From NCBI GenBank assembly GCA_938023035.1, contig CALIDI010000048.1, forward strand, positions 1-64,000: 64,000 nucleotides of DNA, written 5' to 3'. The position numbers and the translations under genes are program-made. A model generated the notes under the pieces. It was not told where the DNA came from. It made no database searches and saw nothing but the letters and a program-made list of their open reading frames with translations. The DNA is from an uncultured Leptolyngbyaceae cyanobacterium (GTDB lineage: Bacteria; Cyanobacteriota; Cyanobacteriia; Leptolyngbyales; Leptolyngbyaceae). Below are positions 2,613-63,994 of this stretch, piece after piece. Numbering within the stretch: the stretch's first letter is position 1; each line of letters starts with the position of its first letter.

Positions 2613-3083
2613 ATGGCTGATGAGCTTGTAAAACCGTTCAATGGCGATCCCTTTGTTGGGCATTTATCGACCCCAATCAGTGATTCTGCCTTCACTCGTA
2701 ATTTTATTGGCAATTTACCTGCCTACCGTAAGGGGCTTTCTCCTCTATTGCGGGGGCTAGAAGTTGGCTTAGCCCATGGTTATTTTTTGGTTGGCCCGTG
2801 GACAAAGTTTGGGCCCTTAAGGGATTCAGACTTTGCTGCAATGGGTGGTCTGATTTCGGCAATGACTCTAGTTTTGATTGCAACAGCCTGTCTCTCGGTC
2901 TATGGGTTAGTCACCTTCCAGGGTGACAACGACTCTACGACTGATTCATTGCAAACCTCAGAAGGCTGGAGCCAGTTTGCCGGTGGCTTCTTCGTTGGGG
3001 CAATGGGAAGCGCCTTTGTCGCTTACTTTTTGCTCCAAAACTTTGACGTCGTTGATTCGATCTTCCGTGGTTTTGTGAACTAA
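2613..3083 (+). CDS. psaL: Photosystem I reaction centre subunit XI (PsaL)
   Basis: PsaL is the membrane subunit at the centre of the cyanobacterial photosystem I trimer, needed for trimer formation. The protein begins [20 protein letters not shown], the typical PsaL N terminus, and contains the conserved [30 protein letters not shown] segment (split here: [11 protein letters not shown] then [12 protein letters not shown]), followed by two further membrane helices (about 75-100 and 125-150). I chose the ATG at 2613 (156 residues, normal length) rather than the in-frame GTG at 2550, which adds an atypical 21-residue extension. AGGA lies about nine bases upstream. I found no psaI beside it, although the two are often paired. 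A terminator-like hairpin follows about 100 bases downstream. Confidence 0.95.
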
Positions 3084-3185
3084 ATCTGGTTCAAGTCCAA
3101 GTCTAGGAGTTTTCTATAGAGAAACAACCCGTTTCAAGCGGGACTTGGTTTTATCAAGTCAACCATCTAACATTTTGGCTTTGGT

Positions 3186-3215
3186 AAGCAGGGACACCAA
3201 TCGCCCCTGCTTTTT
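3186..3215 (+). terminator. Rho-independent terminator-like hairpin after psaL
   Basis: The arms AGCAGGG (3187-3193) and CCCTGCT (3205-3211) flank an 11-base loop and are followed directly by TTTTT. It lies 103 bases after the psaL stop, the right place and orientation to end the psaL transcript. Confidence 0.75.
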
Positions 3216-3257
3216 CGTTGCGAGTTGCCCAGACAAAACCCTCTTAAGAACGCCCCT

Positions 3258-3383
3258 GAGTAGCTGAGCACGATCACGATTAAATTGAAGCTGATTGCAG
3301 AGGTGGAGAGTTAGAACCTCCTGCCTAGGAGCGCAGTCCCGACTCTTCCCTGCTTACAGTTGATTAAAACTACCTACTTATCA
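3258..3383 (+). repeat. Dispersed repeat family 2, copy 1
   Basis: About 125 bp starting GAGTAGCTGAGC and ending ACTACCTACTTATC, so the ends are imperfect inverted repeats. Related copies lie at 9298-9424, at 46606-46726 (best preserved) and, inverted and truncated, at 19028-19107. Shared inner blocks are TTAAATTGAAG, a GGTAGAA/GTTAGAACC block, GCCTAGG and CTTCTCTGCTTACAG. Confidence 0.6.
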
Positions 3384-3482
3384 GAATAATCAGAATCAAA
3401 TGGCTCGAACAAACTAAAACAAAAGGGAGCTACCACTAGGCAACCCCCCATTTAAGGATTCTATTGGCTCGACAGGATAACC

Positions 3483-4646
3483 CTAACGAATATACTCCTT
3501 TAAGACAGTATTACGGTTGGGGTGACGCAGCTTTCGCAGGGCTTTTGCCTCAATCTGCCGAATCCGCTCACGAGTCACATTGAAAATTTGCCCGATCTCT
3601 TCTAAGGTTTTCATCCGGCCATCATCTAAGCCGTACCGTAAACGCAAAACATCGCGCTCTCTGGGGCTGAGGGTATCCAGAACATTTTCCAGATCCTCAC
3701 GGAGGAGATTTTTAGCAACCTGATCTTCAGGGGTCTCCCCGTCAGACTCAATAAAATCACCGAGCCGAGAATCTTCCTCTTTCCCGATGGGGGTTTCTAG
3801 AGAGATTGGTAACTGGGCAGATTTGGCGATAAATCGCAGCTTTTCAATGGTCATTTCCATGCGAGTTGCAATTTCCTCTTCCGTTGGCTTACGCCCCATC
3901 TCTTGAGAAAGCAGCTTTGTTGTCTTTTTAATGCGCGAAATTGTTTCGTACAGGTGAACCGGTAGTCGAATCGTGCGAGACTGATCAGCGATCGCACGGG
4001 TAATCGCTTGCCGAATCCACCAGGTCGCATAGGTCGAGAACTTATACCCCTTCTCATGGTCAAATTTCTCAGCAGCGCGAATCAGGCCTAAACTCCCCTC
4101 CTGAATCAGGTCTTGGAAGGACAAGCCACGGTTCATGTACTTTTTGGCGATCGAGACAACAAGTCTCAGGTTGGACTGAACCATTTTATCCTTGGCTCGC
4201 CGCCCTTGATGGAGACGATAGCGAAAAGCAGGCAATGCCATATCCACTGCCTGCGCCCATTCGCCATCGTTGGGTTCTCGATCCAAACGATCTTGCAAAC
4301 CTTCACGAACCCGTTCCAACTCAAGTAGGTCAGCAATCTTACGAGCCAGCTCAATTTCTTCGTCAGCACGCAGCAACCGAATCCGGCCAATTTCTTGCAG
4401 GTAAAGTCGAATGGAGTCCTCAGTGTAGTGCTTCTTCTTGGTCTGTGCCCGTCGCCGCCCAACGACACGAGTTTTACCAGCTCCCTTACCATCCGAATCT
4501 TCTTCTGCTATGACTTCTAATGAGTCATCGGGATCCTCTTCGTCATCATCAATAAATGCCTCAATATCAGTTTCAGGCAGATCGTCTGCTACATCAGAGG
4601 TATCGTCTGTCAGATCAAGTTCGAGTAAGTCGTTGGCTTGGGTCAT
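3483..4646 (-). CDS. sigA: Principal RNA polymerase sigma factor SigA (group 1, RpoD type)
   Basis: This is the housekeeping sigma-70 of cyanobacteria. An acidic N-terminal stretch (about 1-65) leads into region 1.2 ([19 protein letters not shown]), regions 2.1-2.4 ([19 protein letters not shown], the [18 protein letters not shown] core segment, and the [15 protein letters not shown] -10 recognition helix), region 3 and region 4 ([13 protein letters not shown], then [20 protein letters not shown] for -35 contact). It ends LKEYIR like other cyanobacterial SigA proteins. I chose the ATG at 4646 ([10 protein letters not shown], 387 residues), which has GAGGAACGC upstream and matches relatives. 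The longer TTG/GTG starts at 4688/4685 add 13-14 atypical residues. More than 1 kb of apparently non-coding DNA lies upstream. Confidence 0.97.
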
Positions 4647-5489
4647 GCCGCGTTCCTCATGCTCCTTAACTAAGTCAAATGTCACCAAAAGATTCTATTT
4701 CCACGTGCCCTCATATGCAGCGTCACTAGATCGCCTCCTCAAAAACAGCCCTAAGCATTCCACCTTTATGAAAGAATGAGGCATTTCTATAGCGCTAACA
4801 TTGAGACAACTTTCTGAAAATCTATCCGATTGTAACGTTTCTAACAAATATCAGGCAATTTCACTTTACATAATCAGCGCCAACCCTTTTCCAACTCTAA
4901 AGAGGGCTGTCAAGCTTGTTGACGCCTCACCCGTGAAACTACCTGAGCTATCATTAGCAACGCTTAGAGTCTGAACTCTATCTCCAGTCAAATGCCTTCG
5001 ATTCCGAGAGGCTATAACAAACTGAAAGAACTGATACTTCCACTATTCCAGGTGTCTGGCTTTTTGTACCAGCACGAGAGCATCATGCTCTCTCTGCTAA
5101 GCTAACTCAGATTTTCAAGATCTGAACAAAGTTAATTATTAAGTTAGGTATCCAAATAACGGCTAACGAACCTAATCCTGCCATAGACATACCCACTTGA
5201 GCCTTAACTATTGACTCATTTCAGAGGCCTACACAAACAGCACATGCACTCTTAACTTTGACTACTCGATCAACACTTTGATCAGGAGCAAACCCGGTAA
5301 TGCCGAGCCTCAACGAGCTGTCGTACTAGTGTACAGTTTGCCAACGAGATGGATATGCTAAAGGAATCGCCAATAGCCCCAAACACTATACTAATCCAAA
5401 ATGCTGACATAACAGAGGCAGATAAATCGCCGAAGTTTTTCCGCCATTTCTTGAAATTTTTAAGCTAAGCGTTGGGCCTGTCGTGACTA
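4647..5489. other. Long sigA upstream region, no convincing gene
   Basis: About 840 bases with no ORF I would defend. A perfect GAGAGC-ATCAT-GCTCTC hairpin lies at 5076-5092. The sigA promoter(s) and a long 5' leader are expected here; no consensus was clear enough to place. Confidence 0.5.
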
Positions 5490-7211: not shown

Positions 7212-7604
7212 CTATCCTAAGGCATAACCTCGCTGACGAGCTTGGGCTGAATGAACTAAAGAAGAAAGAATATCGCTACTGATCGGATTGACGAGAAACC
7301 CATCAAACCCAGGGTTATCTTCTTGGTAGATCCAGCTAGGAGCGTGGGTGTCAGTCAACGCTACCAATAAAATTTGATGCGTGTTTGCGTATCGACGCAA
7401 TTCTCCCAGGTTGCTTGACCAATTTCGCTGATCACCTGCCACGATAATCAAAACGGGTGGATTTAAACGAGCGCGTGCCAGAGCGTGATCTTCAGATCGG
7501 GCGATCGCAACAGCATGGCTACCTTGTTTTAGCAAATCAGCTAAAATACCTAGCACTTGCGGTTGCTTCATTAGTAGCAAAATGTAACCCGGTCGTGGGT
7601 GCAT
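7212..7604 (-). CDS. Degenerate response-regulator receiver-like protein
   Basis: I chose the ATG at 7604 (130 residues, MHPRPGYILLLMKQPQ). A longer frame to 7670 adds an unlikely 22-residue extension. The alternating hydrophobic strands and helices match a CheY-like fold: YILLLM (strand 1), helix VLGILADLLKQ, strand VLIIVAGD (where phospho-Asp would lie), helix NLGELRRYA, strand ILLVALTDT and strand GFLVNPIS (the KP loop). However, the acidic pair after strand 1 is replaced by KQP and the switch lysine is missing (VNP for KP), so normal phosphotransfer is unlikely. It is probably a pseudo-receiver or protein-interaction module. It lies just upstream of the deacetylase gene on the same strand. 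Confidence 0.65.
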   Translation of the reverse strand: MHPRPGYILLLMKQPQVLGILADLLKQGSHAVAIARSEDHALARARLNPPVLIIVAGDQRNWSSNLGELRRYANTHQILLVALTDTHAPSWIYQEDNPGFDGFLVNPISSDILSSLVHSAQARQRGYALG

Positions 7605-8065
7605 AGTGTATCTGCATGAATGCGAACAAATCGTGATTGCTGTCAATATAACGGTTGTGAAAAAGGCCATCTTTACTCAGATTAGTACGGAAAGCATTTC
7701 CTATCAGTTATTTCCATCTTTATTTCAGGTAAAAACAGCTTCAATTTTTCTTAGCTATTGCTGCCACCTTATTAATCTTCTGCTAGTTCAAAATCGATTA
7801 GGTCACGTCACTTAACCAAAGATTTTGACTATTCTTAAGTTTTAATCTTTGCTTTATAAGCTAAGTCTAGTTTCATTTTTGTAGGCGGGGAATAAAATAC
7901 TCAACTGTTACGACCGACAGGTCTGAGACGCGAGGGGACTCGCCTGCAATTTGGGGGGTAGGAACGGCTTTTCTGCCATACGTTTGCACAATGAGCGCGG
8001 TGCCAACGACCAAAGTTTCGCTAAGATGCTTAGAAATCGTCCTAATTACTGTGTGACAAATCGAG
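7605..8065. other. Divergent promoter region
   Basis: About 460 bases between the divergent receiver-like gene and the ABC permease gene. It is AT-rich (7660-7880) and should contain both promoters. No specific element could be placed with confidence. Confidence 0.4.
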
Positions 8066-9205
8066 ATGAACTGGTGGCAACGACTGCGAAAAAATCGTCT
8101 GGCTTGGGTGGGAGCCATTGTCTTAGGAGTTTTCTACATTGTGATTTTATTCGCTGAGTTTATTGCTCCCTATGACCCCTATGTTTCCCAAGCGGATGGC
8201 TCGCTCTTACCGCCAACTCAAATCTACTGGCGCAACCAAGATGGCCAGTTGATCGGGCCGCATGTCTATCCCACCACCCAGGGGCCTGTTGATCTGGCAA
8301 CGGGCGATCGCGCCTTGATCGTGGATCGCAGCCAACCTTCGCCCCTGCGCCTGTTTGCCAAGGGTGACCCTTACCGACTCTTTCGTATCCGCCTACCGCT
8401 ACCCACCCAATTCCCTTTTGGCAAATTTGAAGAACGGGAGTTGCTGCCTGGAATTGCGGGCGATCGGCATTTGTTTGGTACAGATGGGCCTGGCCGACTC
8501 AACCTTTTAGGTACCGATGAAGCGGCTCGTGATCAACTCAGTCGGCTGCTCTATGGCGGGCGGGTGAGCCTGACCGTTGGCTTGATTGGGGTAGCGATCG
8601 CCTTTCCTCTGGGAATGCTGGTAGGAGGAATTTCTGGCTACTTTGGCGGCTGGGTGGATGCTATTCTCATGCGCCTAGCGGAGGTAATTATGACTATCCC
8701 CAGTCTTTACCTGCTGGTTACCCTTTCTGTGGTCTTACTCAATCTCGATCTGAAGTTGAGCAGTCCCCAACGGTTTTTACTGATTATTTTGATTACCTCA
8801 TTTATTCGGTGGGCGGCCCTTGCCAGGGTGATTCGTGGACAGGTCTTGTCGATTCGAGAGCGCGAATTCGTCCAGGCCGCCCGCGCCATGGGAGGAGGGG
8901 CTTTCTACAATATTGTGCGCCACGTGCTGCCTCAAACCGCCACCTACGCTCTGATTGCAGCAACACTGGCAATTCCTGATTTTATTGTGGCCGAAGCCGT
9001 TCTCAGCTTTTTGGGACTAGGCATCGTCCCCCCTGACCCCTCCTGGGGGAACATGTTGTCGATTTCCACCAATCCCTCCATTTTGGTGTTGCAACCCTGG
9101 TTAGTTTGGCCTCCGGCGACGCTGATTGTCCTAACGGTGCTGGCATTTAACCTCTTGGGAGATGGCCTGCGCGATGCCCTTGATCCCCGGAGTATCAGCC
9201 GATGA
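8066..9205 (+). CDS. ABC transporter permease, DppC/OppC type
   Basis: An inner-membrane permease of a peptide/nickel/opine-type ABC importer, 379 residues. An N-terminal membrane helix (about 13-33) is followed by a long extracytoplasmic segment, then the LLGTDEAARDQLSRLLYGGR motif typical of DppC/OppC and five or more membrane helices. The EAA loop reads ARAMGGGAFYNIVRHVLPQ, which contacts the ATPase. Usual DppC/OppC proteins are near 300 residues; the extra roughly 80 lie between the first helix and the GTD motif. The ATG at 8066 has GAG just upstream. No binding protein, partner permease or ATPase gene is next to it, so it is an orphan here, as often seen in cyanobacteria. Confidence 0.88.
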   Translation: MNWWQRLRKNRLAWVGAIVLGVFYIVILFAEFIAPYDPYVSQADGSLLPPTQIYWRNQDGQLIGPHVYPTTQGPVDLATGDRALIVDRSQPSPLRLFAKGDPYRLFRIRLPLPTQFPFGKFEERELLPGIAGDRHLFGTDGPGRLNLLGTDEAARDQLSRLLYGGRVSLTVGLIGVAIAFPLGMLVGGISGYFGGWVDAILMRLAEVIMTIPSLYLLVTLSVVLLNLDLKLSSPQRFLLIILITSFIRWAALARVIRGQVLSIREREFVQAARAMGGGAFYNIVRHVLPQTATYALIAATLAIPDFIVAEAVLSFLGLGIVPPDPSWGNMLSISTNPSILVLQPWLVWPPATLIVLTVLAFNLLGDGLRDALDPRSISR

Positions 9206-9297
9206 TGACTCTAGAGCCGCTTGTTTAGTTGGTAACAGCCACTTAGGAGGCTCACCACAACCCTAATGAGGGTACGGCAGCAAGCTTTGGTTGTCTC

Positions 9298-9424
9298 AGT
9301 AGCTGGGCTTAATAAAATTGAAGATGGTTTCGGAGGTGGATGGGGTAGAACCCTTTGCCTAGGAACACGGCCCCGCCCCTTCTCTGCTTACAGTTAATTA
9401 GGTAATTAGGACTGCCGCCTATCT
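9298..9424 (+). repeat. Dispersed repeat family 2, copy 2 (degraded)
   Basis: It begins CAGTAGCTGGGCTT and shares AAAATTGAAGATGG, GGGGTAGAACCC, GCCTAGG and CTTCTCTGCTTACAG with the other copies. It ends near GACTGCCGCCTATCT. It lies between the ABC permease and the 3' end of hppD (convergent genes). Confidence 0.55.
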
Positions 9425-9539
9425 AGGCATGATTTTAGCTGCCTGCTTAAAGCAGGGAGTATCAGGGGCTTAGTTTTTTTCTCTGCTAATCAGCTTGAGG
9501 CATCAGAGCTATTGGAGGATAAGACTTTCAAACGTCTTC

Positions 9540-10625
9540 TTACAGGTTGCCCCGGACGGCTTGCTCTTGCTCTAAAGCAACGAATAAAGATTTGAAGTTT
9601 CCTGCTCCAAACCCGCGAGAGCCGTGACGCTCGATAATTTCAAAAAACAGGGTCGGGCGATCACCAACAGGCTTGGTAAACAGTTGCAGCAGGTAACCAT
9701 CGGCGTCGCGATCTACCAAAATCCCCAGCTCAGCAAATTTATCCACGGGTAGCCCAGTCTCACGCACCCAGGCATCTAAATTGTCGTAGTAGGTCTGAGG
9801 AATGGGTAAAAACTCAACCCCAGCTTGCCGCAACTGCGTCACCGTTTGCACAATGTCATGGGTTGTCAGCCCAATGTGCTGAATCCCTGGCCCCTGGTGG
9901 TAGTCCAAGTATTCTTGAATTTGCGATCGCCTCCGCCCTTGAGCTGGCTCATTGATGTTAATAATTGTCTTCCCACCTTTTTCCAACACCTTTGACATTA
10001 GTGCTGAATACTCTGTTGAAATTGCCCGATCATCAAAATGCATCCGCTGGTCAAAGCCCAATACCCTGACAAAAAACTCGACCCAGCGCTCCATCTGCCC
10101 TTGCTCAACATTGCCAACAATGTGGTCGATACCCACTAACCCAATCAAGCTAGAGGTAACCGTCGCCCGGTTCACAAATCCAGGGGCAAAACCATTCGGG
10201 TAGCCACTCCGGTCAATAAATTTAATCAACGTATCCCCATAGGCATGAATTGCCGCAAACTCCAACACGCCGCACTCATCACTCTGCTGCGTGGGTGGAA
10301 TGGCTCCAACCGCCCCTCGTGCTACGGCACTTTGATAAGCCTCATGGACGTTTGGAACTTCTAAGGCAATAGTTGCAACGGTATCACCATGGCGCACAAC
10401 ACTCTGAGCAATGGGATGATTCCCACTCAAAGCTGAGCTAATCACAAATCGAATTCCAGGCTGCTCCATCACATAGGAAGTGACCTTTCGTTCCCCCGTT
10501 TCTAAGCCAGCGTAGGCAGTGTTAGTAAAGCCGAAACACTTGGCATAGTACATGGCAGCTTGCTTCGCATTACCAACATAAAACTCTAGGTGGTCAACAC
10601 CCTTAATCGGAAATACATCAGTCAT
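9540..10625 (-). CDS. hppD: 4-hydroxyphenylpyruvate dioxygenase
   Basis: This enzyme converts 4-hydroxyphenylpyruvate to homogentisate, the head-group precursor of tocopherol in cyanobacteria and an entry to tyrosine breakdown. The 361-residue protein has the two vicinal-oxygen-chelate halves. The iron ligands are visible as His168 (GIDHIVGN), His250 (GIQHIGLTTHD) and Glu329 (LFFEIIERHG), followed by the C-terminal GSRGFGAGNFKSLF helix. I chose the ATG at 10625, which starts MTDVFPIKGVDHLEFYVG and has GGGAGAA upstream. The open frame continues to 10877 but the added 84 residues look non-coding and overlap the direct repeats. The NRPS-like gene is divergent 1 kb away and might use related phenylpyruvate chemistry (speculative). 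Confidence 0.95.
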   Translation of the reverse strand: MTDVFPIKGVDHLEFYVGNAKQAAMYYAKCFGFTNTAYAGLETGERKVTSYVMEQPGIRFVISSALSGNHPIAQSVVRHGDTVATIALEVPNVHEAYQSAVARGAVGAIPPTQQSDECGVLEFAAIHAYGDTLIKFIDRSGYPNGFAPGFVNRATVTSSLIGLVGIDHIVGNVEQGQMERWVEFFVRVLGFDQRMHFDDRAISTEYSALMSKVLEKGGKTIININEPAQGRRRSQIQEYLDYHQGPGIQHIGLTTHDIVQTVTQLRQAGVEFLPIPQTYYDNLDAWVRETGLPVDKFAELGILVDRDADGYLLQLFTKPVGDRPTLFFEIIERHGSRGFGAGNFKSLFVALEQEQAVRGNL

Positions 10626-57619: not shown

Positions 57620-58645
57620 CTAGCAATAAAGCGCCGAAGCCAGCGAAACGGTATTTTTGCCCTGTTGTTTGGCCCGATAAAGCGCGTTATCCGCCTGGCT
57701 AATGATTTCGTCAACCTGCTTGGCAAATTGAGGAATCATTGTGGCAACCCCTAAGCTGAGGGTGACATAGGAATGGATAGGGGAAGAGTCATGGGGAATT
57801 TGTAAGTCTAAAACGCTCTTGCGAACGCGTTCAGCAACCCAGGCTGCACCAGCTTCATGGGTATTCGGCAAAACCACTGCAAATTCTTCGCCACCATAAC
57901 GGGCAACCAGATCAGAAGACCGATTCACCGCTTGGGCGATCGTTTGTGCCACTCGCCTTAAACACTGATCTCCCGCCTGATGGCCATAGCTATCATTAAA
58001 CGCCTTGAAACAATCGATATCACATAAAATCAGCGATAAGGGCTGTTGCTCACGACTTAAACGACTCCACTCAGTGGCAAGATATTCATTCAACCTGCGC
58101 CGATTCGCAATTTGGGTTAAGTCATCCACCAAAGCCAGATGGTCTGCCTCTAGCAACTTGCTGTACCACTGAGCTTCAACGGCATCCCCATGCTCAATAA
58201 TGGTGCGCATAATCATTTCCAAGTCATACTTTTCTTTAGAAATTATTCTTAATAAGGCTTGCAATTTCGTTTCTGCTGATTTCCGCTCTGCGACTTCTGC
58301 TTCCAAGCGCTGATTGATGCAATGAAGTTCTGTTTCGATTGAGTCGCCATGCTCGACCATTGTCTGCAAAATAATCTCCAAGTCTGCTTTTTGGCGTGAG
58401 ATACTATCAAGAACCGCCTCTAGAACAGCTTGCTTTTGCTTATAATTAGAAATAGCTAACTGAAGGTATTGATTTGCAGTGTGGAGCTGAGACTCAATTA
58501 AGTCTCCATGCATGGCTGTAGTTTCTAGAGCAACTTGTAAATCAGAATTTTCCTGTTGCAACCGCTCAACCTGTTGTCGCAACAGTTCAATCTCAATCAG
58601 TAATTGATCTTTTGCTCCCTGAAGATTTTCCACACCAGACACCAT
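57620..58645 (-). CDS. GGDEF diguanylate cyclase with HGD coiled-coil repeats
   Basis: A 341-residue soluble enzyme expected to make c-di-GMP. The N-terminal half is coiled coil with three copies of a 53-residue repeat, each carrying His-Gly-Asp (46-48, 99-101, 152-154; for example TMVEHGDSIETELHCINQRL). The GGDEF domain (about 172-335) starts VDDLTQIANRRRLNEYLATE and keeps the metal Asp in CDIDCFKAFNDSYGH and the active-site loop ARYGGEEFAVVLP, so activity is likely. I see no RxxD inhibitory site at the usual place. The ATG at 58645 lies five bases after the STAS gene stop, implying translational coupling; an ATG at 58717 would overlap that gene. Confidence 0.9.
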   Translation of the reverse strand: MVSGVENLQGAKDQLLIEIELLRQQVERLQQENSDLQVALETTAMHGDLIESQLHTANQYLQLAISNYKQKQAVLEAVLDSISRQKADLEIILQTMVEHGDSIETELHCINQRLEAEVAERKSAETKLQALLRIISKEKYDLEMIMRTIIEHGDAVEAQWYSKLLEADHLALVDDLTQIANRRRLNEYLATEWSRLSREQQPLSLILCDIDCFKAFNDSYGHQAGDQCLRRVAQTIAQAVNRSSDLVARYGGEEFAVVLPNTHEAGAAWVAERVRKSVLDLQIPHDSSPIHSYVTLSLGVATMIPQFAKQVDEIISQADNALYRAKQQGKNTVSLASALYC

Positions 58646-58650
58646 TAATT

Positions 58651-58992
58651 TCAGCCTAACTCCAGAGAAATACTTGGCATCAATCTCTGTAAATTTCTCA
58701 GCGACTTTGTCTGCCATAACACCTTATTAGAACCCTTTAGAACTAAACCAACATTTCCTTTATTTCTTAAAGACACAACAAACATAGAGAGCATACTAAT
58801 TCCAGAGCTATTTAGAAACTCTAGGTTCTTCATGTCAAGAGTAATCACCGATCCATTCTCGGCGGCAATATTCAAAACATTGATAATCGGCTGATAAGCT
58901 TCCATCCCATCCAAGCGCAAAAAACCCTTGAAGAAAACGGTGGCTTTTTCTGGGTCATACCAGACACTATAATCTTTTGTTGTAATCTCCAT
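58651..58992 (-). CDS. STAS-type anti-sigma-factor antagonist (slr1659-like)
   Basis: A 113-residue single-domain protein resembling the cyanobacterial slr1659 regulator group and SpoIIAA. Strand-helix order fits a STAS fold: VFFKGFLRLDG, helix AYQPIINVLNIAAENG, VITLDMKNLEFL, the switch loop NSSGISMLSMFVVSL (Ser62/Ser63, the position phosphorylated in SpoIIAA) and VGLVLKGSNKVL. It should bind the HATPase encoded just upstream when unphosphorylated and be reactivated by the SpoIIE phosphatase; both are inferred from family behaviour. It lies 97 bases after the HATPase gene and five bases before the diguanylate cyclase gene. Confidence 0.82.
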   Translation of the reverse strand: MEITTKDYSVWYDPEKATVFFKGFLRLDGMEAYQPIINVLNIAAENGSVITLDMKNLEFLNSSGISMLSMFVVSLRNKGNVGLVLKGSNKVLWQTKSLRNLQRLMPSISLELG

Positions 58993-59089: not shown

Positions 59090-59665
59090 TTAGACATCTA
59101 GATGAGCCATAACGACAACTTTGACAATCTCTGGCTGGCTGAGAGAGGCTTCAAACTTCCAGCCGAAGCGGGCAGCATAGTCATTAATCATCGTCAGCAA
59201 GCCCATATGAGAGCCTCCATAACCAAGGGCTGTCTTTTCTAGCTGTTGGGTATAGAGCTGATCGATATCAGAAGTCAGGAGCTTTTGAATAAACTCGATG
59301 TATCTCTTAACTTTGCTCTCAGTGGCGCTATTAGAAACAACAAATACCAGACGTGTATCGTAAAGGTACAGAGAAATATGGATTGGTGATTCAGCACTTA
59401 GGTCACTGTGTTGAATGGCATTTTCTAATAATTCATTGGCGATGTAGCTAACCGAAGATTTGATGACCTCCTGCTTTCCTAGCGCATCTGTTTGATCAGA
59501 AGGGCCAGGAAAAAAGGTAGCAAAGTAGTCGCCCAAAAAGTCGGCGGATAAACCGTAGTTACTCCAACGTAAGTTTCGTGCATTGGAGCTAGGAGAGAAA
59601 CTAATCGTGAGATATTCTTCTGTTGGAGGAAGAGCTTCTATGAACTCTCCAAAGATTTGGGTCAT
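59090..59665 (-). CDS. Anti-sigma-like HATPase (slr1658-like)
   Basis: A 191-residue protein matching the slr1658 regulator group, related to histidine-kinase-like ATPases of the RsbW/SpoIIAB kind. The ATP N-box reads YIANELLENAIQHSD, the G-box GYGGSHMGLLTMIND, and strands HISLYLYDTRLVFVVSN fit the Bergerat fold. It should bind and phosphorylate the STAS partner or hold a target protein; the true target is unknown. It sits between the adenylate cyclase (54-base gap) and STAS genes, the usual slr1658-slr1659 pairing. The ATG at 59665 starts MTQIFGEFIEALPP. Confidence 0.8.
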   Translation of the reverse strand: MTQIFGEFIEALPPTEEYLTISFSPSSNARNLRWSNYGLSADFLGDYFATFFPGPSDQTDALGKQEVIKSSVSYIANELLENAIQHSDLSAESPIHISLYLYDTRLVFVVSNSATESKVKRYIEFIQKLLTSDIDQLYTQQLEKTALGYGGSHMGLLTMINDYAARFGWKFEASLSQPEIVKVVVMAHLDV

Positions 59666-59719: not shown

Positions 59720-61546
59720 TTAATTCAGTGAACGTTTACCCAAGAGCCAGTAAGTGGTCATTTTTCCTTTGCCTTTAATGGCAGTCATACCACGGGGTTT
59801 GAAGTCGTAACTATCCTTAAGGCGCTCATAAACGGTTTGCGTTACCTGAATTTTGCCAGGTTCTCCATGAGCCTCCATGCGGCTAGCAATATTGACGGTA
59901 TCTCCCCAGAGGTCGTAGGCAAATTTCTTTAAGCCAATCACCCCAGCAATGACTGGCCCAGTGTGAATGCCAATCCTTAAGTAAAAAGGAGTACCATCAT
60001 GACGCTGAAACCGGGTAATTTCTCTCTGCATACCAAGGGCAAGATCTGCAATCAACTCAACATGCCTTGGGTGAGGCGAGGGCAAACCACCCACAACCAT
60101 GTAGGCATCACCGATCGTTTTAATCTTCTCTAAACCATAGTGATCAACGAGGGAGTCAAAGGAGGAGAAAATTTCATTCAAAATGTCAACGAGTTCATTC
60201 GGGGAAACCGTATCTGCCAACTCGGTAAAGTTGACAATATCAGCAAATAAGACGGTGACTTTATTAAAATGATCTGCAATCTTATTAGTTCCCCGTTTTA
60301 GCTGTTCAGCAACTTTTTGTGGTAAAACATTGAGCAACAGCCGCTCTGAGGTCAACCGTTGCTGACGCAGTTCGGCTTCCATTTGCTTATGCTCAGTGAC
60401 ATCACGCACTGTACCTTCGTAGTGCAGAACGTGCTCTGCTTCATCTCTAACGACGCGGATGCTTTCAGAAATCCAGATGATGCTGCCATCTTTGCGATAG
60501 ATTTGAGACTCCATATCTGAGGCCGAGCCAAACTGATTCACAAATACGGTTAGCTCTGCCCGGCGGCTAGGCTGCACGTAAAGTTGTTTGGCGATATCTG
60601 TTAAGGCGGCCATTAGCTCTGCTGGAGAGTCGTAGCCATAGATGCGGGCGAGGGCCGGGTTGGCGTTAATGATGTGACCACTAGGTGAAACCTGATAAAT
60701 GCCTTCTACCGAATTCTCAAAAATGCTGCGGTATTTTTCTTCAGATTGTCTCAATTGCTCTTCGCGGTACTCAACTAGGGTTTTGAGTAGCCGGGCTTGT
60801 TCCTGAAGTTTGGCTTGAGATTGGCGGAGCGCTTCTTCTATCTGTTTGCGATCGCCAATGTCGTAAAGGGTGGTAAGCCAGACCAGTTCTCCTTGGAGAG
60901 AAACTTGATGGATCGAGGCGATCGCCCAAAAAGCCTGATTCTGAGCATTCTTTCCCTGTAGCTCAAAGCCAACCAGGCTGCTTTCCTGTTTGAGTGCTTG
61001 CTGCAAGCGGTCAGGTAAATCGGGTTCTTGATAAAAATCCCCCAGCGTGTAAGTTAAAATATCGGCCTCAGACACACCCAAAAGCTGGGCTGCCGCCGCG
61101 TTGGCATAACGAATTGAACCGGCTGGTGTTTGCGTCAGTACCATTGCGACGGGGCTAGCTTCGGCGATCGCCCGAAAGAGTTCTTCACTCTGACGCATTA
61201 CCTCAACAGCACGTTTATAGAGGTGATATTCGACGGTATCTCCATGTTCTACGGTGAGATTAAGAATGGCTTCTAAATCGGCTTTATCTCGGCTAACAGT
61301 GGTTAAAATGGCCTGGAGCGTTGACTGAGCCATTTGGCGCTCAGCAATTTCGGCCTGTAACCTCTGATTTGCTTGCTGTAACTCGGCTTCAATCGCATCT
61401 CCATGTTCCACAGCCGTTTCGAGGGTAACTTGCAAGTCTTGATTGAGTTGGCGTAGTGCTAGAACCTCCTGTTGCAGTAACGTGATCTGATCTAGAGGAT
61501 CGAGTGCACTGAGATCGACTTGCCCTGATGATGATGAGTGCCCCAT
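59720..61546 (-). CDS. PAS-containing class III adenylate cyclase with HGD repeats
   Basis: A 608-residue soluble cyclase. Residues about 20-115 are coiled coil with two 53-residue repeats bearing His-Gly-Asp (48-50, 101-103). PAS 1 spans about 121-235 and PAS 2 about 270-388. The cyclase domain (about 425-605) starts KVTVLFADIVNFTELADTV. Metal ligands Asp436 and Asp480, adenine-selecting Lys476 and Asp545 (KIKTIGD, AYDLWGD) and transition-state Asn552 and Arg556 (NIASRM) are all present, so adenylate rather than guanylate cyclase activity is expected. The ATG at 61546 is clear. It begins a tight four-gene run with the HATPase, STAS and diguanylate cyclase genes. Confidence 0.93.
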   Translation of the reverse strand: MGHSSSSGQVDLSALDPLDQITLLQQEVLALRQLNQDLQVTLETAVEHGDAIEAELQQANQRLQAEIAERQMAQSTLQAILTTVSRDKADLEAILNLTVEHGDTVEYHLYKRAVEVMRQSEELFRAIAEASPVAMVLTQTPAGSIRYANAAAAQLLGVSEADILTYTLGDFYQEPDLPDRLQQALKQESSLVGFELQGKNAQNQAFWAIASIHQVSLQGELVWLTTLYDIGDRKQIEEALRQSQAKLQEQARLLKTLVEYREEQLRQSEEKYRSIFENSVEGIYQVSPSGHIINANPALARIYGYDSPAELMAALTDIAKQLYVQPSRRAELTVFVNQFGSASDMESQIYRKDGSIIWISESIRVVRDEAEHVLHYEGTVRDVTEHKQMEAELRQQRLTSERLLLNVLPQKVAEQLKRGTNKIADHFNKVTVLFADIVNFTELADTVSPNELVDILNEIFSSFDSLVDHYGLEKIKTIGDAYMVVGGLPSPHPRHVELIADLALGMQREITRFQRHDGTPFYLRIGIHTGPVIAGVIGLKKFAYDLWGDTVNIASRMEAHGEPGKIQVTQTVYERLKDSYDFKPRGMTAIKGKGKMTTYWLLGKRSLN

Positions 61547-61951: not shown

Positions 61952-63994
61952 CTACTCCCGCTGTTTAATAACAACCAGGGTCAAGTCATCAAAAATCCTT
62001 TGCTCTCCAACATGGTGATAGACATCGGCAATCACAGCCTGTCGAATTTCGGCAGCCGTTCGTTGATAGGTTCGTTGCAGTATCTGGTATAAGCGCTCTA
62101 GGCCATACATTTCATTCCTTGGGTTAACGGCCTCAGTGATGCCATCGGTATAAAGAACAGCAACCTCTCCAGGAGCCAGGGAGGTTTTGATTTGCCCCAC
62201 AAAGGGGGTGATGTTGCTTTCAATTCCCAAGGGAAACCCTAGCTCAAAGGTGTCCACCGTTTCAATTTGGCCGTTGCGGCGAACAAGTACTAATTCTTCG
62301 TGTTGGCCACTGAGGCATAACATTCCTGCTTCATACTCAAGCAGCGAAAGGGTCATGCTTTTGGTAGATTTCATCCGGCGGGTGTTCGTGTAAATGATTT
62401 GATTAAGAACTTGTAGTCGTTTAATCGGATCGGTGTCATTGGCAATCAGGAGGGCGCGAAGAGCAGTTTGTGCCATTAGCATCAGAACGCCACTTTCGAG
62501 GCCGTGACCGGTGACATCACCAATACCAATGCTGATTCGGCCATTTTGTTGCAATACATCGTAGTAGTCGCCACCCACTTCTGTCGCGGGTTCCATAAAT
62601 CCGGCAATGTCTAGGTCAAGAATTTGCTGTAGCTCTTCTTCGCGCGGGAGAATCATTTGCTGGAGTTGCCGCGTTACTTCTAGCTCAGTACCCATGCGGA
62701 GATTTTCAGCTTTCAGTTGTTCATTCAGGCGGCTGATTTCGTCGTTGGCGGCAGCCAGAGCAGCTTCGGCTTGCTTGCGTGCAGTGATGTCTTCGACGGT
62801 GCCTTCGTAATAGAGTAGGTGACCTTCTGGATCGTAGACCGCCCGGGCGCTTTCAGAAATCCAAATAATGCTGCGATCGCGGCGGTAAATCTGGGCTTCG
62901 AAGCCGTTGACTTGATGGTGGGCTTGCATCTGCTGAATAAACGCCTGTCGTCGGGCTGGCTCTACATAGAGTTGCTGAGCAATGTCGGTACAGTTGGTGA
63001 TCAGCTCTGTGGCAGTCTCGTAGCCGTAGATACGGGCTAAGGCCGGGTTGGCACTGAGAAATTGGCCCGCTGGAGTCGTCTGAAAAATGCCGATAACAAA
63101 GTTTTCATAGATACTACGGTAGCGAGCGCTTTCTGCCTGGAGTTGGGCGTTTAGGTGACTAATTGCGGCCCTAGCCTGGTTTTGCTTAGTGATGTCTGTG
63201 GCGATCGCCAATACGCCCAGTTCCTCACTACCAGGCAACGGTAACACGCGCTTAATCCATTGCAGCCAACAGGTTTGGCCCTGCGCATTGACCCAGGCCG
63301 TTTCAGGAATGAGTAAATCCTCCCCTGAAACGATTACCTCCTGGTTTTCACCGATAAACTGTTGCCATTGCCCAGGTGGAAAAAACTGGGCTGCGCCGTT
63401 TCCTAAAATTTGGGCAATTTCTGTGCCCCAAAAGTTTGCCAGAGTCTGGTTTGCCAGGAGCACCTGGCCATTCCAGTTTTGTACCAGGATCAAGTCTGGG
63501 GAGGTGTCAACAAGTTGATGCAAAAATTCCCACTGCTGTTGCAAGGTTGCCTGTGCCAGCAGGCGTTCGGTAATTTCTTCGTAGGCCGTCGCAATCCCCA
63601 CGATTTGCCCAGTTTCATCGTAGAGCGGGGTTTTACTAATATCTAGCCAGATTTGGCGACCATCAGGTTGTACTAGCGTGTGAACAGAATGGCGTAGGGA
63701 GGTTCCAGTAGCAAGAACATGTTGATTGAGTTCGGCAAAAAGCTCGGCCTGTTTATGAGAAAACGATAGGTCGCTATCTGCCTTGCCAATAATTGTAGTT
63801 CCGTCAGCCAAGCCAGCGATCGCCGCGCCTAAATGGTTGCACCCCAGATAGTACCCATCCGTATCCTGCCAGAAAATGGCCAAAGGAATGCTGTCTACCA
63901 CCTGCCGCATCATCATTTGAGTGGTTGGCAACTCCTCTGGCTGCCGCTCTACCCCAGGGAGCATTGCTGTCGGGGCCATCACCTGGCCCTTCAT
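61952..63994 (-). CDS. Multi-PAS SpoIIE/RsbU-type protein phosphatase
   Basis: A protein of 680 or more residues with three PAS domains (about 25-150, 155-280, 290-410), a short coiled coil (about 410-440) and a PPM/SpoIIE serine phosphatase domain (about 450-678). The third PAS closely resembles PAS 2 of the adenylate cyclase (NPALARIYGY, RSIIWISES, YEGTV). Metal-binding acidic residues are intact: EVGGDYYDVL, IGIGDVTGHGLESG, LYTDGITEA and FDDLTLVVIK. It should dephosphorylate a STAS antagonist, most simply the one encoded 3 kb downstream. The ATG at 63994 may not be the true start, because the frame stays open to the window edge. Confidence 0.9.
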   Translation of the reverse strand: MKGQVMAPTAMLPGVERQPEELPTTQMMMRQVVDSIPLAIFWQDTDGYYLGCNHLGAAIAGLADGTTIIGKADSDLSFSHKQAELFAELNQHVLATGTSLRHSVHTLVQPDGRQIWLDISKTPLYDETGQIVGIATAYEEITERLLAQATLQQQWEFLHQLVDTSPDLILVQNWNGQVLLANQTLANFWGTEIAQILGNGAAQFFPPGQWQQFIGENQEVIVSGEDLLIPETAWVNAQGQTCWLQWIKRVLPLPGSEELGVLAIATDITKQNQARAAISHLNAQLQAESARYRSIYENFVIGIFQTTPAGQFLSANPALARIYGYETATELITNCTDIAQQLYVEPARRQAFIQQMQAHHQVNGFEAQIYRRDRSIIWISESARAVYDPEGHLLYYEGTVEDITARKQAEAALAAANDEISRLNEQLKAENLRMGTELEVTRQLQQMILPREEELQQILDLDIAGFMEPATEVGGDYYDVLQQNGRISIGIGDVTGHGLESGVLMLMAQTALRALLIANDTDPIKRLQVLNQIIYTNTRRMKSTKSMTLSLLEYEAGMLCLSGQHEELVLVRRNGQIETVDTFELGFPLGIESNITPFVGQIKTSLAPGEVAVLYTDGITEAVNPRNEMYGLERLYQILQRTYQRTAAEIRQAVIADVYHHVGEQRIFDDLTLVVIKQRE

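Follow-up and report, generated by a model that had tools for sequence, protein, structure and literature searches.

The closest described counterpart of the gene cluster reported here is the Sia system of Pseudomonas aeruginosa. According to PMC8457831, SiaD is activated by SiaC, which contacts two motifs of the parallel coiled-coil stalk, chiefly with its helices alpha2 and alpha3; SiaC residue T68 inserts between the stalk helices near S82 and Q86 of SiaD, and phosphorylated T68 hinders binding. The discussion of that paper names two partner switches, HsbA-HsbD and BgrV-BgrR, in which a STAS-domain protein controls a diguanylate cyclase, as is proposed for our cluster. Slr1658 of Synechocystis has been tied to recovery from iron starvation and to pgr5 expression (PMC7555055), and a predicted interaction network includes Slr1657-Slr1660 (PMC4614683); the passages in question link these proteins to no cyclase.

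The cluster lies in a 64-kb window (the whole stretch of DNA that was analysed) and consists of five genes, all on the minus strand. The ORF list and Pfam matches give the transcription order as PAS-SpoIIE phosphatase, adenylate cyclase, HATPase-type kinase, STAS protein and GGDEF protein. The first gene (61952..63994) encodes a PAS-PAS-PAS-SpoIIE (PP2C-type) phosphatase (PF07228, 130.1 bits, cut-off 25) that presumably dephosphorylates the STAS protein, and its ORF lies 405 nt upstream of the cyclase ORF. The class III adenylate cyclase (59720..61546; PF00211, 227.7 bits, cut-off 21.9) carries PAS domains and two stalk motifs; its preference for ATP is our assumption from its residues, and its cyclase domain gave the sole match in a comparison with a defence library, to Pycsar cyclases. 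It is followed after 54 nt by an HATPase-type protein (59090..59665), the presumed STAS kinase, which belongs to the slr1658 family (NF052618, 240.2 bits, above the cut-off of 200) and scores 25 bits against DUF6272, below the cut-off of 26.6. After a further 97 nt comes a single-domain STAS protein (58651..58992), the proposed ligand of the motifs and a member of the slr1659 superfamily (NF047705, 150.3 bits, above the cut-off of 100). The last gene (57620..58717; longest ORF 365 aa) encodes a GGDEF diguanylate cyclase (PF00990, 192 bits, cut-off 23.8) with three stalk motifs and, by sequence reading, a GGEEF sequence and an RSSD I-site. In the region 58645-58717 its longest ORF shares 67 nt with the STAS gene, and M25 (about 58645) is the likelier start since it just clears the STAS stop codon and so removes the overlap.

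The STAS protein, kinase and phosphatase look like the SiaABC phospho-switch and stand outside the Sia sequence families. Against the SiaC family PF09345 the window STAS protein scored 14.7 bits (cut-off 24.5), and a search of its own genome with PF09345 gave no match; the kinase scored 13.1 bits against SiaB NF038262 (cut-off 85) and the phosphatase 45 bits against SiaA NF038263 (cut-off 700), a weak likeness. The GGDEF protein reached 156.2 bits against SiaD NF038266, below the cut-off of 290 and over residues 191-356 only, its GGDEF half. Since the models of all four Sia proteins fall below their cut-offs and the slr1658 and slr1659 models above theirs, the cluster was not filed as SiaABCD; the names of the two families to which its kinase and STAS protein belong carry no mechanism.

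We propose, with a probability of about 0.7, that an HGD repeat on the stalks of the two cyclases is a coiled-coil docking station for the STAS phosphoprotein of the same cluster, whose dephosphorylated form would bind and activate both cyclases and which phosphorylation would release. Docking of the STAS protein on the stalk motifs, taken by itself, we consider highly probable. The proposal starts from four observations, namely the motif, its spacing rules, its strict co-occurrence with a STAS gene in the sampled genomes and a STAS model whose fold resembles that of SiaC.

Numbered along the longest ORF, the HGD triplets of the GGDEF stalk are residues 70, 123 and 176 (58502-58510, 58343-58351 and 58184-58192), and the adenylate cyclase stalk has its triplets at residues 48 and 101 (61397-61405 and 61238-61246), in both cases 53 apart. 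This agrees with the initial annotation, which had placed the same GGDEF triplets at 46, 99 and 152, 53 apart, by counting from M25, and the adenylate cyclase triplets at 48 and 101 with the same separation. Compared with itself, the GGDEF stalk has its best offset at 53, with 35 of 112 residues identical (31%) against 16% for the runner-up, and the adenylate cyclase stalk reaches 13 of 72 at offset 53, not better than at offset 14. After composition-preserving shuffling an HGD pair 53 apart was found in 0 of 200,000 sequences for each stalk. At the DNA level a repeat finder returned two pairs of similar 24-mers, 159 nt apart inside each gene; a recent DNA duplication was rejected as the origin of the repeat, the DNA repeats that are left being short and diverged.

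The earlier arithmetic, by which 53 equals 6x7 + 11 and keeps a coiled coil in register, is right, and the continuous coiled coil that had been suggested agrees with the AlphaFold2 model of the GGDEF protein. There the stalk (residues 32-196; 58130..58624, minus strand) is predicted to be a single unbroken helix of 165 residues, with block mean pLDDT of 62-76 over residues 31-90, the region of motif 1, and of 85-96 over residues 91-200. The repeat had also been noted as having no known named domain, and no Pfam family passed its cut-off over it: the best matches of the GGDEF stalk were LegC3_N at 16.9 bits (cut-off 25) and Filament at 15.4 bits (cut-off 40), and the best of the adenylate cyclase stalk was SYCE1 at 17.2 bits (cut-off 27). 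Among the NCBIfam matches listed for the stalks (25 of 27 for the GGDEF protein), no named domain exceeded its cut-off.

A profile search of cyanobacterial genomes, which the initial annotation had suggested, was made in 386 genomes with a 38-column profile, A2, at E<=0.001, and gave matches in 42 of them; all rows but two lie below 1e-9, and both exceptions are extra copies in proteins already matched. The window holds five copies, all on the minus strand. Those of the GGDEF protein are motif 1 (58469..58582, HGD at residue 70, E=3.4e-17), motif 2 (58310..58423, residue 123, E=2.5e-16) and motif 3 (58151..58264, residue 176, 21 residues before DxLT, E=3.3e-17 over 58154-58264), and those of the adenylate cyclase are motif 1 (61364..61477, residue 48, E=1.1e-13) and motif 2 (61205..61318, residue 101, E=1.0e-15 over 61208-61318). 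The unit, first described as 53 residues long, does recur in other genomes, but it is shorter: the motif spans at most 38 residues, can stand alone and has copies 25 to 67 apart. An alignment of 37 instances gave the majority consensus LxxxxxxLxxEKxDLEIxLETTxEHGDxxExxL.

Two samples were used for counting. Sample 1 comprises the surroundings of every A2 match in the 386 genomes; sample 2 comprises 80 named loci, the best among at least 513 relatives from genomes with names, which were selected by STAS and are not a test of association. The organisms overlap in part, and the samples are not additive. Over both samples, with sample 2 so limited, 173 unique motifs were obtained, of which 167 have the His, 154 the Asp at column 27, and 172 one of G, S, A, T, C or N at column 26. 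Read in register, column 26 appears to be a core position of the coiled coil, where a small residue would be unexpected in a plain coiled coil.

The motif is found in one to three copies per protein, and its carriers are GGDEF proteins, class III cyclases, histidine kinases, PAS proteins and proteins without an output domain. In 117 distinct motif proteins from both samples (sample 2 again the best 80 of at least 513), 51 are like the window GGDEF protein, 29 are class III cyclases, 26 have PAS without either and 11 matched no query domain. Pfam, run on ten such motif proteins, assigned HisKA/HATPase to five (L087, L094, L117, L265, L273), GGDEF together with EAL to two (L119, L282) and PAS alone to another two (L101, L108); the tenth (L077) had a match to HAMP alone. 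The initial annotation had seen the repeat on two cyclases and suggested a mixed-oligomer module for them, which is not supported; histidine kinases and proteins without an enzyme domain carry the motif too. Two of the loci are filed outside cyanobacteria: L282 (Ca. Albibeggiatoa, 7275-9698) encodes a PAS-GGDEF-EAL protein whose two motifs are separated by 39, and L273 (Desulfococcaceae HSG8, 2956-5184) a PAS histidine kinase in which the separation is 57, again between two motifs. The set of STAS, kinase and motif is thus present in non-cyanobacterial records, for which transfer and mis-binning are both possible. A variant motif, HST[DA]LE, was seen on cyclases near STAS genes of the ELSL type (L083, L088, L208) and on proteins of 160-190 aa directly after a STAS gene (L077, L079, L236, L258), which matched no query domain; in L077 Pfam found HAMP alone. 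A profile of this class B motif (HSTDLEN..., profile A5) matched strongly in 4 of 194 genomes, and in 7 of 194 at E<=1e-5.

The distances between motifs fall into few classes. All 36 motif-to-motif spacings in sample 1 are 4 mod 7, with values of 53 (26 cases), 60 (7), 46 (2) and 25 (1). Sample 2 (best 80 of at least 513) has 40 spacings, with values of 53 (27), 60 (4), 46 (2), 67 (2), 25 (1), 39 (1), 64 (2) and 57 (1), and 37 of them are 4 mod 7; the exceptions are the two of 64, in both of which the first copy is degenerate and without HGD, and the one of 57. The distance to the catalytic domain is similarly constrained. Counted for the last motif, from the residue that follows His up to the D of DxLT, it is 21 (16 cases), 35 (7) or 14 (6) in sample 1, where the pattern was found in 29 of 31 GGDEF motif proteins, and 21 (17) or 14 (5) in all 22 cases measured in sample 2 (best 80 of at least 513). 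With such fixed spacing classes the sites hold a constant orientation towards one another and towards the catalytic domain.

Profile A3, built on the STAS protein, divided the 386 cyanobacterial genomes into 54 positive and 332 negative at E<=1e-10. The initial annotation had recommended looking for conserved partners of HGD-repeat proteins, and the STAS gene is one: it is carried by 42 of 42 motif genomes (counting G005, in which the STAS frame is broken), and A2 found the motif in 0 of the 332 STAS-less genomes. Fisher's test gives p values of 1e-45 by genome and 8e-22 by genus, both of which ignore shared ancestry, but within each of four families (f1, f6, f7 and f18) some genomes have motif and STAS gene together and others have neither. 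A 77-column profile, A1, gave weak, partial matches in six STAS-less genomes (G019, G024, G030, G042, G072, G127) that A2 did not reproduce. STAS genomes without the motif number 12 of 54 (G044, G091, G109, G119, G125, G145, G151, G174, G187, G229, G282, G376), which indicates that the STAS protein has further partners; in seven of these the STAS protein is of a second type by a crude pattern, with ELSL instead of LRL.

These results bear on an alternative explanation, in which the stalk is a linker only, a coiled coil or signalling helix that dimerises each enzyme and passes on a conformational change, with HGD as a register marker that has no partner. The long helix predicted in the GGDEF protein and the register-keeping motif spacing are as such a linker would have them, and the stretch between motifs resembles what we take to be common PAS-kinase linkers. 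A pure linker, however, need not be missing from all 332 STAS-less genomes, and a near-invariant His and Asp at positions read as non-core, together with a small core residue, are unlike a plain coiled coil. We regard this explanation as improbable.

The STAS gene is also often close to the motif genes. In sample 1 it lies within 2 kb on the same strand for 44 of 61 motif proteins, a count that is a floor because ORF picking dropped the STAS genes of L184, L185 and L188 that profile A3 shows; the 61 leave out one motif protein in G135, lost to ORF picking, and take in one weak variant in L088. In sample 2, the best 80 of at least 513 and selected by STAS, the corresponding figure is 60 of 65, with a motif protein in 57 of the 80 loci. 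A kinase gene lies within 1.5 kb on the same strand of 64 of 72 and 61 of 75 STAS genes. At L100 (8480-10041) a single motif GGDEF protein is flanked by two STAS genes. In G005 C88 (L110, L118) the STAS gene is broken by stop codons and the single motif protein of the genome is eroded at its HGD site. One STAS-kinase-phosphatase locus (L257) is filed under a Gracilibacteria bin, for which mis-binning is suspected.

The initial annotation had proposed a docking or mixed-oligomer module, and its first half is probably right. Mixed oligomerisation of the two cyclases through their common repeat would account for the presence of the repeat on both window enzymes and on neighbouring enzyme pairs in several loci, but a tally of A2 rows shows a single motif protein in 24 of the 42 motif genomes, and in some loci, the window included, the paired enzymes have unequal numbers of motif copies. 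Because those 24 genomes hold no second motif cyclase to pair with, the mixed oligomer was rejected as the general role of the repeat, and we judge it very improbable.

The STAS protein was modelled by AlphaFold2 with a pLDDT of 95. Foldseek ranked SiaC entries first to seventh in the PDB (SiaC-SiaD, SiaB-SiaC and apo-SiaC; E 2.9e-5 to 4.5e-4), ahead of SpoIIAA. In VIA-align the model was tied between SiaC (6kko_D, Z 12.3 over 112 residues) and RsfB (Z 12.1 over 100), which means that fold by itself does not set SiaC apart, and a sequence profile search with the STAS protein retrieved generic STAS proteins and not SiaC. Its LNSSG loop (residues 60-64) is invariant in 21 STAS sequences, N61, S62 and S63 included, with I65 in at least 90%, and a Ser of this loop is the presumed phospho-acceptor. 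Mutual information between paired columns of STAS protein and motif showed no enrichment in alpha2/alpha3, which hold 14 of the top 50 couplings against 13.4 expected and have a mean best coupling of 0.104 against 0.126 elsewhere. Residue 70 of the STAS protein (Met or Lys) pairs with the motif residue G or S in an uneven manner (of 84 pairs, 28 M-G, 37 K-S, 9 K-G and 0 M-S), which may reflect shared ancestry only.

From these observations we infer physical binding, control by phosphorylation and activation rather than inhibition. In the proposed mechanism, the small residue (G, S or A) at the core, after the near-invariant His and before the Asp, would leave a slot between the two helices of the stalk. 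The LNSSG loop and helix alpha2 of the STAS protein would enter this slot and alpha3 would lie along the stalk, as SiaC does on SiaD. A signal sensed by the PAS domains would set the SpoIIE phosphatase against the kinase: removal of the Ser phosphate would allow the STAS protein to bind, stiffen the stalk dimer and switch the catalytic domains on, and phosphorylation by the kinase would make it let go of the stalk. With three and two sites per chain, the GGDEF dimer could hold up to six STAS proteins and the adenylate cyclase dimer up to four, and one phospho-switch would set c-di-GMP and cAMP together. The sign of control is borrowed from SiaD, and activation is accordingly put forward by analogy. 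The STAS protein might instead dock and inhibit the enzymes, or the partner bound to the stalk might be the kinase and not the STAS protein. Sequence does not give the direction of control, and the genes for kinase and STAS protein are closely linked; yet the closest folds of the STAS model by Foldseek are those of SiaC, and in PMC8457831 it is the STAS-fold partner of SiaD that binds and activates, its phosphorylation stopping binding. This alternative is unlikely in our view.

More generally, we lean towards the view that the motif is a portable plug-in site, a short heptad-phased stalk motif that would put any dimeric output (c-di-GMP, cAMP, histidine kinases) under one STAS phospho-switch, with the number of motifs setting the STAS load. 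SiaC-SiaD would then be one branch of this arrangement, and in the window one PAS-sensed phosphatase would govern both cAMP and c-di-GMP. Should a portable motif allow one STAS switch to serve several enzymes, the binding protein would act as a shared bus, and cyanobacterial cAMP and c-di-GMP signalling would come under common upstream control. A ligand would thereby be proposed for a set of signalling proteins of which otherwise just the output domains are known, and the rule of an H[GSA]D motif with spacings of 4 mod 7 and a distance of 0 mod 7 to DxLT could be used to find clients and to build controllable cyclases. A literature search over titles and abstract openings found no published report of the HGD motif or of STAS control of cyanobacterial cyclases.

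How far the cyanobacterial site resembles that of SiaD was assessed at several levels. Profile searches gave no direct proof of sequence kinship to SiaD or SiaC; the motif profile, run against the PDB, did not retrieve SiaD at E<=10. The model of the window GGDEF protein retrieved other GGDEF structures first and SiaD at rank 13 with an rmsd of 11.5, which is uninformative for the stalk. When the motif matrix was slid along SiaD (7e6g), S51 and S83 (S50 and S82 of the paper), the two known SiaC sites, took the top two places in two of three column ranges, among 88 offsets in one and 84 in the other; in the remaining range, the first tried, one SiaC site was second of 85, outscored by an offset within the GGDEF domain, and the other lay outside the fragment. 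The scores are negative in absolute terms, and with shuffled stalks the best score is reached in 2170, 840 and 101 of 5000 cases for the first, second and third range, 101 being that of the longest. The scan supports likeness of site, not proven descent.

The likenesses are of several kinds. SiaA, SiaB, SiaC and SiaD are a phosphatase, a kinase, a STAS-fold phosphoprotein and a GGDEF enzyme, the set of roles presumed for the window proteins, and SiaD has repeated motifs on a parallel coiled-coil stalk to which those of the window are comparable, with no profile match between them. The two SiaC sites of SiaD, RLERIARISDGFQSMARE and RLEKVARISDRYQQMMRD, are 32 apart, which is 4 mod 7 as in the cyanobacterial motifs when S-D-x-[YF]-Q is aligned to [GSA]-D-x-[IV]-E, and by alignment count the second lies 21 residues before the D of DPLT, a value also seen in the window GGDEF protein. 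Motif column 26 is aligned with S82 of SiaD. SiaC has N67-T68-S69-x-I71 where the window STAS protein has N61-S62-S63-G-I65, an N-[TS]-S-x-I loop in both. The systems differ in the site itself, which is I-S-D-x-[YF]-Q in SiaD and H-[GSA]-D-x-[IV]-E in cyanobacteria, and in its use, since cyanobacterial stalks have up to three sites and the motif extends to adenylate cyclases and to histidine kinases. That a STAS protein can control a diguanylate cyclase is already known; the new element proposed here is a portable, repeated docking motif found across several output types.
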